A DNA stretch of 64,000 nucleotides from Firmicutes bacterium HGW-Firmicutes-9 (GTDB taxonomy: Bacteria; Bacillota; Clostridia; Christensenellales; CAG-138). Positions within the stretch are counted from its first letter, which is position 1, and every line of letters begins with the position of its first letter. Below are positions 39,223 through 45,218 of the stretch, one piece after another. The DNA lies in the NCBI GenBank assembly GCA_002841395.1, contig PGZM01000001.1:1-64000 (forward strand), read 5' to 3'. Made by a program: the position numbers and the translations under genes. The notes beneath the pieces were generated by a model, which saw nothing but the letters and a program-made list of their open reading frames with translations, made no database searches and was not told where the DNA came from.

Positions 39223-39247
39223 TCGGTTTGAGTGTTGAGGATTGAAG

Positions 39248-40231
39248 ATGCTTATGACAAACGAAAGAAAAGTTACCATTATTCCACCAAAACCCAAATA
39301 TCATTACCGGGTTGGTATTTATTGTAGAGTGAGCAGCCGAAGCCAAGAACAACTGACTAGTTTGGCTACACAAGCTTCTTACCTTACAAGGTTAGTTGCA
39401 GCAAAACCGGGATGGATACTGTCTGATATTTATCTCGATATTAAATCCGGCTCAGAAGAGGCTGACCGTAACGAGTTCCAGCGGCTGCTCACAGATTGCC
39501 GAGCGGGGAAGATTGACGTTGTGCTTACAAAAAGTATCAGTCGATTCGGAAGAAACACGGTCGAAACTTTAGCAACAATAAATGAGATGAGGGCAAAGAG
39601 AGTCGAGATTGTATTTGAGCTGGAAGAGATAAGCACGAATGACTCAGCAAGTCAACTTTACATCTCAATTCTTGAAGGTGTAGCTCAGGAAGAGAATTTA
39701 AATAGAAGCGAAAATATCCGCCTTGGTATTAAGCATAAAGTTGAGAATGGAACTGCGCGCATTTTCTTGAAAAGATGTTACGGTTACTTAAATGATGATA
39801 GCGGAGATTTGCGTATTAACGATATGGAGGCAGACGTTGTTCGAAGTATTTTTGATATGTATTTAGCAGGAAAGAGTATTATCGGTATCAAACGGGAACT
39901 TGAAAGAAGCAACATATTGTCACCGACGGGTAATAGCATATGGTGTAAACGAAGTATAGAAAACATATTGGCTAATGAGAAATATTCAGGGGATGTTTTA
40001 GTATTCAAGACATATTGTGAAGGCTTTCCTGAATCAAAGAGAAAAACAAATACAGACGGGAAACATGAGCAGTATATATCAATATCTAATAATCCAATGA
40101 TTATATCAATAGAAACATTTAAAGCAGCAAACGAAGAGAGAAATCGGCGAAGCAATGTATTTAAAACCGAAACGGGAAACAACAGAAAATCTACCCGGTA
40201 TAGCTCGAAGAAAGTAGAAATCAAACAATAA
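39248..40231 (+). CDS. Short serine recombinase of the 4.27-kb element
   Basis: A 327-residue protein with a resolvase catalytic domain ('VGIYCRVSSRSQEQLTSLA', 'VLTKSISRFGRNTVETLATI') and Recombinase domain ('GIKRELERSNILSPTGNSIW', 'ILANEKYSGDVLVFK'). It stops before the zinc ribbon and coiled coil that large serine integrases have, so it is either C-terminally truncated or a naturally short form. The ATG at 39248 follows GAGGATTGA. It lies beside the right direct repeat and is the natural candidate for moving this element. Confidence 0.9.
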   Translation: MLMTNERKVTIIPPKPKYHYRVGIYCRVSSRSQEQLTSLATQASYLTRLVAAKPGWILSDIYLDIKSGSEEADRNEFQRLLTDCRAGKIDVVLTKSISRFGRNTVETLATINEMRAKRVEIVFELEEISTNDSASQLYISILEGVAQEENLNRSENIRLGIKHKVENGTARIFLKRCYGYLNDDSGDLRINDMEADVVRSIFDMYLAGKSIIGIKRELERSNILSPTGNSIWCKRSIENILANEKYSGDVLVFKTYCEGFPESKRKTNTDGKHEQYISISNNPMIISIETFKAANEERNRRSNVFKTETGNNRKSTRYSSKKVEIKQ

Positions 40232-40585: not shown

Positions 40586-40657
<72 letters not shown>

Positions 40658-40695
40658 ATCGCTATGCGGTTGTACAATGGACTCTTAAAACAAAT

Positions 40696-40741
40696 CCATT
40701 CATGAAACGGCGATGATTGGTTGGTGCCGTCTCATGAATGG
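40696..40741 (-). terminator. Terminator between tRNA-Gly and tRNA-Cys
   Basis: CCATTCATGA-A-ACGGC pairs with GCCGT-C-TCATGAATGG; on the minus strand it is followed by ATTTGTTTT. It begins with the CCA of tRNA-Gly, so part of the array transcript may stop or be processed here. Confidence 0.65.
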
Positions 40742-40814
40742 AGCGGGAAACGGGGCTCGAACCCGCCACCTCAGCCTTGGCAAGGCTGCGCTCTACCGAA
40801 TGAGCTACTCCCGC
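40739..40814 (-). tRNA. tRNA-Gly (anticodon GCC)
   Basis: A 76-base cloverleaf: acceptor GCGGGAG, anticodon stem CAGCC/GGCTG around TTGCCAA, T arm GGTTCGAGCC and encoded CCA. The 3' end overlaps the start of a terminator hairpin. Confidence 0.95.
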
Positions 40815-40822
40815 AAGGAGTC

Positions 40823-40898
40823 TGGTGCCTCAGAGTGGACTTGAACCACCGACACAGGGATTTTCAGTCCCTTGCTCTACCAACTGAGCTACCGAGGC
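40823..40898 (-). tRNA. tRNA-Phe (anticodon GAA)
   Basis: A 76-base cloverleaf: acceptor GCCTCGG with one G-T pair, anticodon stem AGGGA/TCCCT around CTGAAAA, T arm with GTTCAAGT, discriminator A and encoded CCA. Confidence 0.95.
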
Positions 40899-40906
40899 AT
40901 AAAAAA

Positions 40907-40980
40907 TGGCGACCCGGAGGGGGCTCGAACCCCTGACCTCCAGCGTGACAGGCTGGCGTACTAACCAACTGTACTACCGA
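40907..40980 (-). pseudogene. tRNA-Asp (GTC), 5' acceptor strand missing
   Basis: The D arm, anticodon arm CCAGC/GCTGG around CTGTCAC, T arm, 3' acceptor strand CCGGGTC, discriminator and CCA are intact. The 5' strand keeps only the last four bases (TCGG); the first three acceptor bases are replaced by the body of the upstream tRNA-Val. As written, no 7-bp acceptor stem can form. It is either a real deletion or an assembly error. Confidence 0.8.
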
Positions 40981-41047
40981 CAACAGGGCTCGAACCTGTG
41001 ACCCCTTGCTTGTAAGGCAAGTGCTCTCCCAGCTGAGCTATGCTCCC
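40981..41047 (-). pseudogene. tRNA-Val (TAC), 3' acceptor strand missing
   Basis: 5' acceptor GGGAGCA, D arm, anticodon arm CTTGC/GCAAG around CTTACAA and T arm ACAGG/CCTGT are intact. After the T arm only TG of the expected TGCTCCC is present before the sequence passes into tRNA-Asp. It lacks most of the 3' acceptor strand, discriminator and CCA. It is the first gene after the array promoter. Confidence 0.8.
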
Positions 41048-41258: not shown

Positions 41259-41312
41259 ATGGAAACTCAATCAACTGTCTGAGAAACAGGCGAAGGAACG
41301 GAGGCAACACAG

Positions 41313-42653
41313 ATGGAACTCGCATCCAAGCGTAAAACCAACACGAGAGACCTCGTGCGCGCCGGCATCCTATCCGCGCTCATCATCGTGATGACCGTTG
41401 TGCCTTATACAGGATATATCAGCTATGGTCTCGTTGAGATCACAACCTTACATATTGTAGTCGCCGTCGGAGCCGTCATGCTCGGCTGGAGATACGGCGC
41501 GGTGCTCGGCTTCGTCTGGGGCGTGACGTGTATGCTGCGCGCGCTGACCAACCCGCTCTGGGCGCCGTTTGTCAACCCGATGATTTGTCTCGTCCCGCGT
41601 ATTATCGTCGGCATCGTCGGCGGACTCACCGCGCAGGGACTTCGCAAGCTCCGTATGCGCTCCGGCCTCGTTGCGGCAATCTCTGCCGCGGCTGCGACGC
41701 TGACCAACACCGTGCTCGTGCTCTCCGCGCTGAAGCTCTTCTCCGTGGTGCTCACGGGGCTTCCGCTGCTCGGCACCATCTACGCCACGCTCATCGGTGT
41801 CAACGGCTCCATCGAGCTTGTGGCGGCGATTCTGCTCGTGCCCGTCATCGTCGCTGCCGTCAGCCCGAGAGAACTCGTGCTGGGCATCGATATCGGTGCG
41901 TCCACGACAAAGTTTGCGCTGGTCAAAAACGGCAAGTGCATCAAGGAATATAGAAAGCCCGACGAACAGAGCTTTGAAGACGCGCTGGATAGCTTCGGTT
42001 ATGCGGGCGTGAAGCGCATTGCGGTCACCGGCGTTGGCTCTTCGTTCATCACAGGCAATCTCAAGGGTATCCCAACCGTGCATAAGGACGAGTTCACGTC
42101 CGTTTCGCGCGGGGCAACGAAGCTCTCCAAGAAGCTCAACACGCTCGTCGTCAGCATCGGAACGGGTACGTCGTTTACGCGCATCACACCGATCCGCGCG
42201 TGGCACGTCGGCGGCACCGGCCTCGGCGGCGGCATGCTCATGGGCCTCAGCAGCCGTCTTTGCGGCACGGGCGATATGGAAGAACTCCAGACGCTTGCGG
42301 CTAAGGGAGACCTCCATGCCATCGATCTGCAGCTCAAGGACGTGTTTGAAGGCACGCTTTCGCACCTCACGCCCGACGCTACCGTCGCCAACATGAGCAA
42401 GCTCAGCGACGCGTCCATGCGCGAAGATGTCGCGGCGGGACTTTGCAACATGATCTTCCAGTCCATCGGCGTGATGGCGGTGTTTGCCGCAAAGCGGCAC
42501 ATGACCCGAACTATTATCATGGTCGGTACGATCACGGACTGGCCGATCGCGCAGCGCAGCCTGGATGAAGTGGCAGCGCTTCACAACGTCAAGTTCATCG
42601 TGCCTGACCATGCCGCGTTCGCGACCGCCATTGGCGCGGCGCTTTCCGAGTAA
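41313..42653 (+). CDS. Fused ECF transporter S component and type II pantothenate kinase
   Basis: A 446-residue protein. Residues 1-185 are an ECF-type substrate-binding membrane subunit (six hydrophobic segments; 'TVVPYTGYISYGLVEITTLH', 'VRAGILSALIIVMTVV'). Residues 188-446 are an acetate/hexokinase-fold kinase of the type II pantothenate kinase group ('VLGIDIGASTTKFALVKNG', 'VVSIGTGTSFTRI', 'GGTGLGGGMLMGLS'). The kinase phosphorylates pantothenate in the first step of coenzyme A synthesis. The fusion implies uptake coupled to trapping by phosphorylation. It needs shared EcfA/EcfT subunits encoded elsewhere. RBS GGAGG. No stop or frameshift breaks the junction. The vitamin is inferred from the kinase half. 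Confidence 0.9.
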   Translation: MELASKRKTNTRDLVRAGILSALIIVMTVVPYTGYISYGLVEITTLHIVVAVGAVMLGWRYGAVLGFVWGVTCMLRALTNPLWAPFVNPMICLVPRIIVGIVGGLTAQGLRKLRMRSGLVAAISAAAATLTNTVLVLSALKLFSVVLTGLPLLGTIYATLIGVNGSIELVAAILLVPVIVAAVSPRELVLGIDIGASTTKFALVKNGKCIKEYRKPDEQSFEDALDSFGYAGVKRIAVTGVGSSFITGNLKGIPTVHKDEFTSVSRGATKLSKKLNTLVVSIGTGTSFTRITPIRAWHVGGTGLGGGMLMGLSSRLCGTGDMEELQTLAAKGDLHAIDLQLKDVFEGTLSHLTPDATVANMSKLSDASMREDVAAGLCNMIFQSIGVMAVFAAKRHMTRTIIMVGTITDWPIAQRSLDEVAALHNVKFIVPDHAAFATAIGAALSE

Positions 42654-42698: not shown

Positions 42699-42782
42699 TT
42701 TTGGTGTAAAAACGAAACAGGTATCAACATGCCGGAAAAGTCCGGAAGACTTTATCCGGTGGAGACACATATAGGAGGAATT

Positions 42783-44072
42783 GTGAAACACTTTAACGTA
42801 GCCCTGTTGGGCTTTGGCACGGTTGGCAGCGGCGTTTACCGTATCGTCAACGAAAACGGCGCGCAGATCGCGCACCGGGAGGACATCGAACTCTCCGTCA
42901 GCCGCATTCTCGTGCGGGATTTTGAGTATGAACCGAATCTGGACATGGCGCCGCGCGCGCTCTTCACCACGTCGTTTGACGAGATCATTTCCGATCCCGC
43001 GGTCGACATCGTGGTTGAGTGCATGGGCGGCATTGAGCCCGCAAAGACGTTTATCATCCGCGCGCTGGAAGCAGGGAAGACCGTCGTTACCTCCAACAAA
43101 GAGGTGATGAGCAAGAATTGGCCCGTGTTTGAGAAGGCCGCGAAGGCCACAGGTGCAGGACTGTATCTTGAGGCGACCGTCGGCGGCGGCATCCCGATCA
43201 TCCGCACGATTCTCGACTCCATGCAAGCCAACAACATCACCCGCGTGATGGGCATCATCAACGGCACCACGAACTACATCCTCACGCAGATGACCGAGAA
43301 CGGCCAGAGCTTTGAAGATGCGCTGGCGGACGCGCAGGCGCTTGGCTATGCTGAGGCGAACCCCACAGCGGACGTAGAGGGCTATGACGCGATGTACAAG
43401 CTCTCGATCCTCTCGTCGATGTCCTTTCACGCGCATATGCCCATCGAGGTGATCTACCGCGAGGGGATTACGAAGCTGACCAAGGCGGACTTTGAGACGG
43501 CTGCGCTGCTGGATTACCGCATCAAGCTGCTCGCTATCGGCAAGAAGGAAGGTAACAAGATCGAGGTGCGCGTGCATCCGACGATGATCCCCAAGACGCA
43601 TCCGCTCGCGAGTGTGCGCGGCGTGTTTAACGCGATATTCCTCACGGGTCACGCGGTGGACGACGTGATGCTCTATGGCCGCGGCGCGGGTTGTATGCCG
43701 ACCGCCAGCGCGGTGGTGAGCGACATCGTCTACGCCTGCCACCACGAGAAACAGCATAAATACATGACCTTCGTCAATGAAGATAACATGTCGAGCGATA
43801 TCGAGCTCGTCAAGGACTTCCATTGTATCTACTGCATTCGTCTGCATGTTGCGGATAAACCCGGCACGATGGCGGCGATCGCCGCGGCGTTTGCCGAGCA
43901 GGGCGTGTCGCTCAAGAGCGTCATCCAGCTTGGCGAGAACGACGGCGTGTCCTCGCGCATCACGTTCCTGACGCATGCTGCAAGCGAGTTTGGCGTAAAC
44001 GAAGCGCTCAAGAAGATTGAGTCGCTCTCGTGCGTCAACGCGGTGGAGAGCGTCATCCGCGTAGAGGAGTAA
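42783..44072 (+). CDS. hom: Homoserine dehydrogenase with ACT domain
   Basis: A 429-residue enzyme reducing aspartate semialdehyde to homoserine with NAD(P)H, in the branch to threonine and methionine. N-terminal Rossmann 'VALLGFGTVGSGVYRIV'; catalytic region 'GGGIPIIRTILDSMQANNIT' and 'GIINGTTNYILTQM'; 'EANPTADVEGYDAMYKLSIL' holds substrate- and catalysis-related acidic and Lys residues. A C-terminal ACT domain (about 350-429, 'IYCIRLHVADKPGTMAAIA') gives feedback control by threonine. The GTG at 42783 follows AGGAGGAATT. No thrB or thrC lies next to it. Confidence 0.96.
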   Translation: MKHFNVALLGFGTVGSGVYRIVNENGAQIAHREDIELSVSRILVRDFEYEPNLDMAPRALFTTSFDEIISDPAVDIVVECMGGIEPAKTFIIRALEAGKTVVTSNKEVMSKNWPVFEKAAKATGAGLYLEATVGGGIPIIRTILDSMQANNITRVMGIINGTTNYILTQMTENGQSFEDALADAQALGYAEANPTADVEGYDAMYKLSILSSMSFHAHMPIEVIYREGITKLTKADFETAALLDYRIKLLAIGKKEGNKIEVRVHPTMIPKTHPLASVRGVFNAIFLTGHAVDDVMLYGRGAGCMPTASAVVSDIVYACHHEKQHKYMTFVNEDNMSSDIELVKDFHCIYCIRLHVADKPGTMAAIAAAFAEQGVSLKSVIQLGENDGVSSRITFLTHAASEFGVNEALKKIESLSCVNAVESVIRVEE

Positions 44073-44138: not shown

Positions 44139-44214
44139 GCTGATGTAGCTCAGTCGGTAGAGCACCTCATTGGTAATGAGGAGGTAGGCAGTTCGAATCT
44201 GCTCATCAGCTCCA
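44139..44214 (+). tRNA. tRNA-Thr (anticodon GGT)
   Basis: A 76-base cloverleaf: acceptor GCTGATG/CATCAGC, anticodon stem CCTCA/TGAGG around TTGGTAA, T arm with GTTCGAAT, encoded CCA. Its 3' 32 bases are repeated exactly about 244 bases downstream. Confidence 0.95.
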
Positions 44215-44714: not shown

Positions 44715-45218
44715 ATGGAGCAAAGAGACGCATACTGGAATCAAGTATATGAGTTTCATAGTTTCATCTACTATTATGAATCAATACGGAGGAGAAGCTT
44801 GTTTTGGAATCAGTTTTTTAAAATATCACTCGCGGTTCTAACAGCTGGGAGCGTGGCAAGTTGGCAGATATGGGAAAAACTTGCAACGCTTTGGACGATT
44901 ATCGCTTGTGTGTCTCAAGTTGCGATAATTGTTTATGAGTTCTTACCCTTTAAATCGCGGCTTAGAGACATAAAGACGTTAGACACACTACTTTGGAGCA
45001 TAGCTCTTGGCGCAGATAATCACTTATTCGACGTTGAACGTGGAGATTTGAGTGATGGACAAATCAATGATTTAATCACGGAGTACAGAAAACTCTGGAA
45101 GATGGCTGAGGATAAATTTTTCAAGGATGATTGTGTACCTGATAATGAGAAGCTGAAGGAAGATGCTAAAGAGAAAGCAAGAATCTATATGCAAAGGTTC
45201 GTAAAGGAGGATCATTAA
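44715..45218 (+). CDS. Two-TM SLATT-like membrane protein, possible defence effector
   Basis: A 167-residue protein: an N-terminal amphipathic helix with 'FYYYESIRRRSLFWNQFFK'-like basic-aromatic region (about 15-37), two transmembrane helices (about 38-58 and 63-82), then a cytoplasmic helical domain with many charged residues to the C end. The 2TM-plus-helix layout resembles SLATT proteins, membrane effectors linked with nucleotide-signal defence systems. No cyclase or SLOG gene is next to it. It is AT-rich compared with the neighbours. Stop and next start are adjacent, so it forms a two-gene operon. The family call is tentative. Confidence 0.6.
   Translation: MEQRDAYWNQVYEFHSFIYYYESIRRRSLFWNQFFKISLAVLTAGSVASWQIWEKLATLWTIIACVSQVAIIVYEFLPFKSRLRDIKTLDTLLWSIALGADNHLFDVERGDLSDGQINDLITEYRKLWKMAEDKFFKDDCVPDNEKLKEDAKEKARIYMQRFVKEDH

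Follow-up and report, generated by a model that had tools for sequence, protein, structure and literature searches.

A PanT-like ECF S component fused to a type II pantothenate kinase-like domain, a candidate pantetheine importer in clostridial genomes without detected CoaBC

The window, by which we mean the whole 64,000-nucleotide stretch of Firmicutes bacterium HGW-Firmicutes-9 DNA that was analyzed, contains a single open frame of 446 codons plus a stop, running from ATG to TAA, that encodes a PanT-like ECF S component followed by a type II pantothenate kinase (PanK)-like kinase (Table 1). Upstream, a gene for a large serine recombinase with Resolvase and Recombinase domains precedes a cluster of five tRNA genes, perhaps an integration spot. 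Downstream is a gene for a homoserine dehydrogenase with an ACT domain, which follows the fusion across the genus. Beyond it, a tRNA gene precedes a gene for a 167-amino-acid protein that apparently has two membrane helices and lacks a Pfam match.

Table 1. Coordinates of the fusion gene, its parts, and its neighbors in the window
Feature	Position	Strand	Basis or remark
Large serine recombinase	39242..40231	+	
Five tRNA genes	40587..41042	-	just after the recombinase
GGAGG, likely ribosome-binding site	41300..41304	+	8 nt before ATG; sequence
Fusion gene, PanT-like ECF S component plus type II PanK-like kinase	41313..42653	+	frame, profiles, relatives, model
S-component half, amino acids 1 to 186, six membrane helices, PanT family	41313..41870	+	profiles, model, aligned residues
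Kinase half, amino acids 187 to 446, type II pantothenate kinase fold	41871..42650	+	profiles, model, aligned residues
Homoserine dehydrogenase	42729..44072	+	
tRNA gene	44139..44211		
167-amino-acid protein	44715..45218	+	

An earlier note on this DNA had described an uninterrupted frame in which an S component is followed by a type II PanK, and this description was confirmed by the frame itself, by Pfam and NCBIfam profiles, and by relatives. Five further genomes of the host genus carry the fusion at full length and stop free, with 81 to 92% identity; that of a sixth congener is interrupted by a contig end. Against congeners, dN/dS was about 0.07 to 0.13 in both halves by simple Nei-Gojobori counts, and both halves are under purifying selection. 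A frameshift separating the halves, which the note had named beforehand as grounds for rejecting its reading, was not seen in these congeners, and the recurring full-length frame together with the low dN/dS rules out a frameshift or assembly artifact. The fusion is thus confirmed as real, neither chance nor sequencing error. The structure prediction that the note had suggested was also run (mean pLDDT, 91.5; pTM, 0.83; input alignment, 64 rows), and its two halves resemble solved PanT and Staphylococcus aureus PanK. In the predicted model, a linker is absent: membrane helix 6 ends at residue 183, and the first kinase strand begins at residue 188. There are five lysines and arginines at the N terminus, four in the fourth loop (residues 105 to 120), and none in residues 143 to 158, a distribution expected of an N-in, C-in S component that would place the kinase half in the cytoplasm. 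The best 50 Foldseek matches were kinases only; the S half was matched in the VIA list.

The amino-terminal half matched Pfam ECF_trnsprt (PF12822) at amino acids 12 to 180 with 51.5 bits (cut-off, 30.7). A ten-sequence S-half profile scored Lactobacillus brevis PanT (4rfs) at 138 bits (E value, 2e-39) and 6zg3 at 117 bits, and the next S component in the same comparison, ThiT, reached only 26 bits. Residues 8 to 187 of the model superimposed on 4rfs with a Z score of 25.7 (2.2 A over 180 residues), and the S half gave a Z score of 23.8 against Lactobacillus delbrueckii PanT (6zg3). The PanT assignment stems from the S half itself and is independent of the kinase half. Helix 1 contains a small-xxx-small motif, G18/A22, which we take to be the EcfT contact. 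Mutants of L. brevis PanT indicate that W64, R95, and N131 matter for pantothenate binding (PMC7755397), and these residues align with W69, R96, and N132 of the fusion. Among 23 fusion S halves, R96 is kept in 22 and N132 in 20, whereas W and F share position 69 (10 and 13 sequences, respectively). The fusion therefore has the sequence family, the six-helix fold, and the W/R/N binding residues in common with known PanT, a group II ECF S component, and we liken it to PanT in the use of a shared ECF module as well. However, known PanT stands alone, as a protein of about 200 amino acids, whereas here its C terminus runs directly into a kinase, and the cargo of the fusion, unlike that of known PanT, is probably pantetheine, as argued below.

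The earlier note had proposed that a single protein both imports and phosphorylates the vitamin. The joining of S component and kinase stands, but a separate EcfA/EcfA'/EcfT module encoded elsewhere would still be needed. Genes for EcfA, EcfA', and EcfT are found together in the host genome (G000 C5, L221, 12232-9617, - strand), adjoined by a putative truA-like gene, named from a reading of its sequence. In a search of the host genome with the fusion as the query, the fusion was the only PanT-like S component found. It is also the only type II PanK of that genome, in which a type III PanK was searched for and not found.

The carboxy-terminal half matched Pfam Fumble (PF03630) at amino acids 275 to 444 with 76.2 bits (cut-off, 28.5) and the NCBIfam type II PanK model PRK13317 at amino acids 189 to 445 with 195.1 bits (E value, 1.5e-57). 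Since the latter score is under the 234-bit equivalog cut-off, we call this half type II PanK-like. Residues 188 to 446 of the model superimposed on S. aureus PanK (4m7y) with a Z score of 28.6 (2.6 A over 254 residues). E260 corresponds to the S. aureus catalytic base Glu70 and is invariant in the fusions and their relatives, and both glycine-rich motifs reported in the note were borne out (GTGTS at 283 to 287 and GGTGLGGG at 300 to 307). The fold, family, and key residues are observed, and from them we infer that the half would be active as a kinase. The note had also allowed for a BadF-type enzyme with lost catalytic residues. The CoA_E_activ/BadF activase profile gave 40.5 bits, far under its cut-off of 125.4, and this score together with the retained catalytic Glu rules out both an activase and a dead enzyme. 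H298 aligns with S. aureus Arg113, presumably an active-site Arg, and is nearly invariant among the relatives aligned; it was considered as a marker of CoaBC loss and dropped, as G368, which has CoaBC, also has His here. The ASKHA fold, the catalytic Glu, and the glycine motifs are common to this half and the type II PanK CoaW (S. aureus 2ews/4nb4; human PANK1-3). The fusion kinase differs from CoaW in being tethered to the membrane, in having His for Arg113, in its score below the equivalog cut-off, and in occurring in a host in which CoaBC was not found.

Fusions were found in other genera at 42 to 44% identity. Within the host family, an HMM check placed fusions in genera g1, g2, g6, g13, and g15. 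Type II kinase frames of at least 450 amino acids, or ended by a contig end, occur in 27 of 103 family genomes. A scan of named genomes added fusions of 40 to 53% identity in metagenome-assembled genomes of uncultured Clostridia, some with titles that point to rumen-type samples. Beyond the host family, 396 genomes from the order and 398 from the phylum yielded no fusion; split pairs or lone kinases were found there instead. Type III PanK was considered as a fusion partner and rejected; in the loci examined, type III kinases were separate neighbors only.

Outside the fusion clade, the two genes often form a pair in which the S-component gene leads and about 0 to 22 nt separate it from the kinase gene. 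These split panT-panK(II) pairs (L012, L014, L015, L129-L134, L140, L154, and L159) have the families and order of the fusion and differ in being unfused, likely the precursor state; in L012, L131, L133, L134, L140, and L154, a lone in-frame stop lies between the genes. In G013 (L014), the split pair is followed by the homoserine dehydrogenase gene that also follows the fusion in the window. This common neighbor and the split pairs elsewhere indicate that the fusion probably arose from an adjacent S-component and kinase gene pair.

The two halves appear to have had different histories. In quick trees with long branches, the kinase halves of all fusions formed one clade (SH-aLRT, 98), whereas a single clade of all fusion S halves was rejected (p-AU, 0.02). 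Genus g2 includes sister kinases whose S halves are unrelated (L069 and L079 versus L010, L011, and L117-L128), and one clade was again rejected there (p-AU, 0.0003). One kinase clade with S halves that do not form a clade suggests that the membrane half has been swapped under a constant kinase lineage.

We then consider the coenzyme A (CoA) pathway, searched in draft genomes for CoaBC/CoaB, PanC, CoaD, type II PanK, and type III PanK/CoaX. CoaBC was not found in any of the eight fusion genomes tested, including G012 (98% complete) and G008 (97%); the CoaBC model detected its target in 14 of 14 control genomes. PanC was absent from 15/15 genomes tested, and CoaD was found in 20/20. Among the 103 family genomes, 45 have CoaB and 46 have type II PanK, a count that excludes two weak matches, and just one, G368, has both, an avoidance with a Fisher p of 4e-16, uncorrected for ancestry. 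CoaB and CoaX co-occur in 43 of the 103. Each of genera g2, g5, g10, g13, and g25 contains both states, CoaBC and type II PanK. These mixed states imply that the swap happened repeatedly and argue against pure inheritance.

In genomes with CoaBC, panT lies directly upstream of coaX, on the same strand in 25 of 26 measured loci, and the two genes mostly overlap or stand apart by no more than 30 nt (about -10 to +28). Where both are on one contig, coaBC is no more than 5 kb from panT-coaX in 20 of 24 genomes. In G019, G016, G031, and G445, the distance is about 2 to 3.5 kb, giving a compact pantothenate-to-phosphopantetheine cluster. G009 and G256 likewise have a type III CoaX beside PanT, with CoaBC present. 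These operons resemble the fusion in that the PanT gene directly precedes the PanK gene; unlike the fusion, they consist of separate genes, encode a type III kinase, and keep CoaBC, and so represent a pantothenate route.

Pantothenate was the cargo named in the earlier note, by extension from the kinase half. That is probably wrong, given fusion genomes that tested negative for CoaBC and PanC: without CoaBC, which carries out the two activities that follow the kinase step, phosphopantothenate cannot reach CoA by the known route, which makes pantothenate a dead end, and pantetheine fits better. Pantetheine is a breakdown product of CoA. Type III CoaX does not use it, some other PanKs do, and gut bacteria without CoaBC are predicted to be auxotrophic for pantetheine, with an importer that is largely unknown (PMC11487621, PMC6593275, PMC12570885). 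The published pantetheine shunt, or Apn variant, combines PanK and CoaD without CoaBC or pantothenate synthesis, as in the fusion genomes, and its importer is unknown (PMC6593275); the fusion is a candidate for that importer. A known B5 transporter was present in just 12% of surveyed CoaBC-less bacteria (PMC6593275). The route of uptake is described as poorly understood in a review from 2025 (PMC12570885).

The simplest reading of the gene content is that type II PanK and PanT make up a pantetheine import-and-phosphorylation system, which in one clade has become fused. On balance, we favor the view that the fusion is a membrane-tethered device that imports and traps pantetheine and so bypasses the lost CoaBC. 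We infer its substrate, transport, kinase activity, and benefit of tethering as follows. The PanT-like half would capture the substrate outside the cell, possibly as pantethine or a mixed disulfide, and dock on the shared EcfA-EcfA'-EcfT module, which would spend ATP to release the substrate inside. The kinase half, positioned in the cytoplasm directly beneath the S component, would phosphorylate pantetheine to 4'-phosphopantetheine, which could not leave and would pass straight to CoaD and CoaE, bypassing the CoaBC step lost in these bacteria. Tethering might speed trapping or give channeling.

Several observations run against pantetheine. A residue comparison found none that cleanly splits PanK II-linked from CoaX-linked S components, and the kinase half scores under the NCBI equivalog cut-off. 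In S. aureus, the model organism for type II PanK, CoaBC is present and pantothenate is used (PMC7770189). Other observations favor a fusion that imports and phosphorylates pantothenate, with an unrecognized enzyme replacing CoaBC: the S half belongs to the PanT family and retains R96 and N132, whose L. brevis counterparts matter for binding of pantothenate, the closest match of the kinase half is a bona fide pantothenate kinase, and G368 combines type II PanK with CoaBC. However, CoaBC is missing from all fusion genomes tested, type II PanK supplants CoaX as CoaBC goes, repeatedly within genera, and an additional unknown enzyme pair would be required. We therefore regard pantothenate import as a serious but unlikely alternative to the pantetheine device.

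A broader salvage role is improbable. Here the S half would take several pantoyl compounds (pantothenate, pantetheine, and pantothenamide-like conjugates) and the kinase would phosphorylate all of them, with only the pantetheine branch leading to CoA. The lack of a residue separating the two S groups fits such breadth, as does the finding that genus g5 S components beside type II PanK (L015) and CoaX (L099) are sister sequences; moreover, solved structures of type II PanK include complexes with pantothenamides (4nb4 and 4m7x). Against it, L. delbrueckii ECF-PanT was assayed with pantothenate and folate only (PMC7755397). A single S-component residue marking pantetheine versus pantothenate was looked for, and none was found.

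That the S half serves the kinase as a sensor of ligand or as an anchor in the membrane, instead of being a working importer, is highly improbable: S-component folds do occur in 5TMR histidine kinases, where they act as receptors (PMC11109136), and G012 pairs a degraded S half with a retained kinase half, but the host encodes EcfT and both ATPases, the fusion is its only PanT-like S component found, and binding residues are kept with low dN/dS.

Both component families are known, and the pantetheine shunt had been proposed previously. In open-access papers, we found no description of an ECF S component covalently joined to a kinase, nor any that names a candidate importer for the shunt. The PanT-PanK fusion protein of CoaBC-less genomes is a concrete, testable importer candidate, and within that literature it would be the earliest case on record of an ECF S component that has a metabolic enzyme built in. 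The larger claim stands at about an even chance: that this is the first importer of the ECF type for pantetheine, covalently linked to a kinase for that compound so that uptake is coupled to phosphorylation and life without CoaBC is allowed, with S halves apparently exchanged under one kinase lineage. The fusion is also a natural system in which to ask whether product trapping by a kinase tethered to an importer drives uptake, and its carriers include some uncultured gut-type and anaerobic clostridia.

The fusion of G012 (L009 / L120) has the exchanges A22F, R96S, and N132F in its S half, by which EcfT-contact and pantothenate-binding residues are lost, and this half scores 26 bits against the Pfam cut-off of 30.7. 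The same genome, one of those in which CoaBC was not found, also has a type III PanK.
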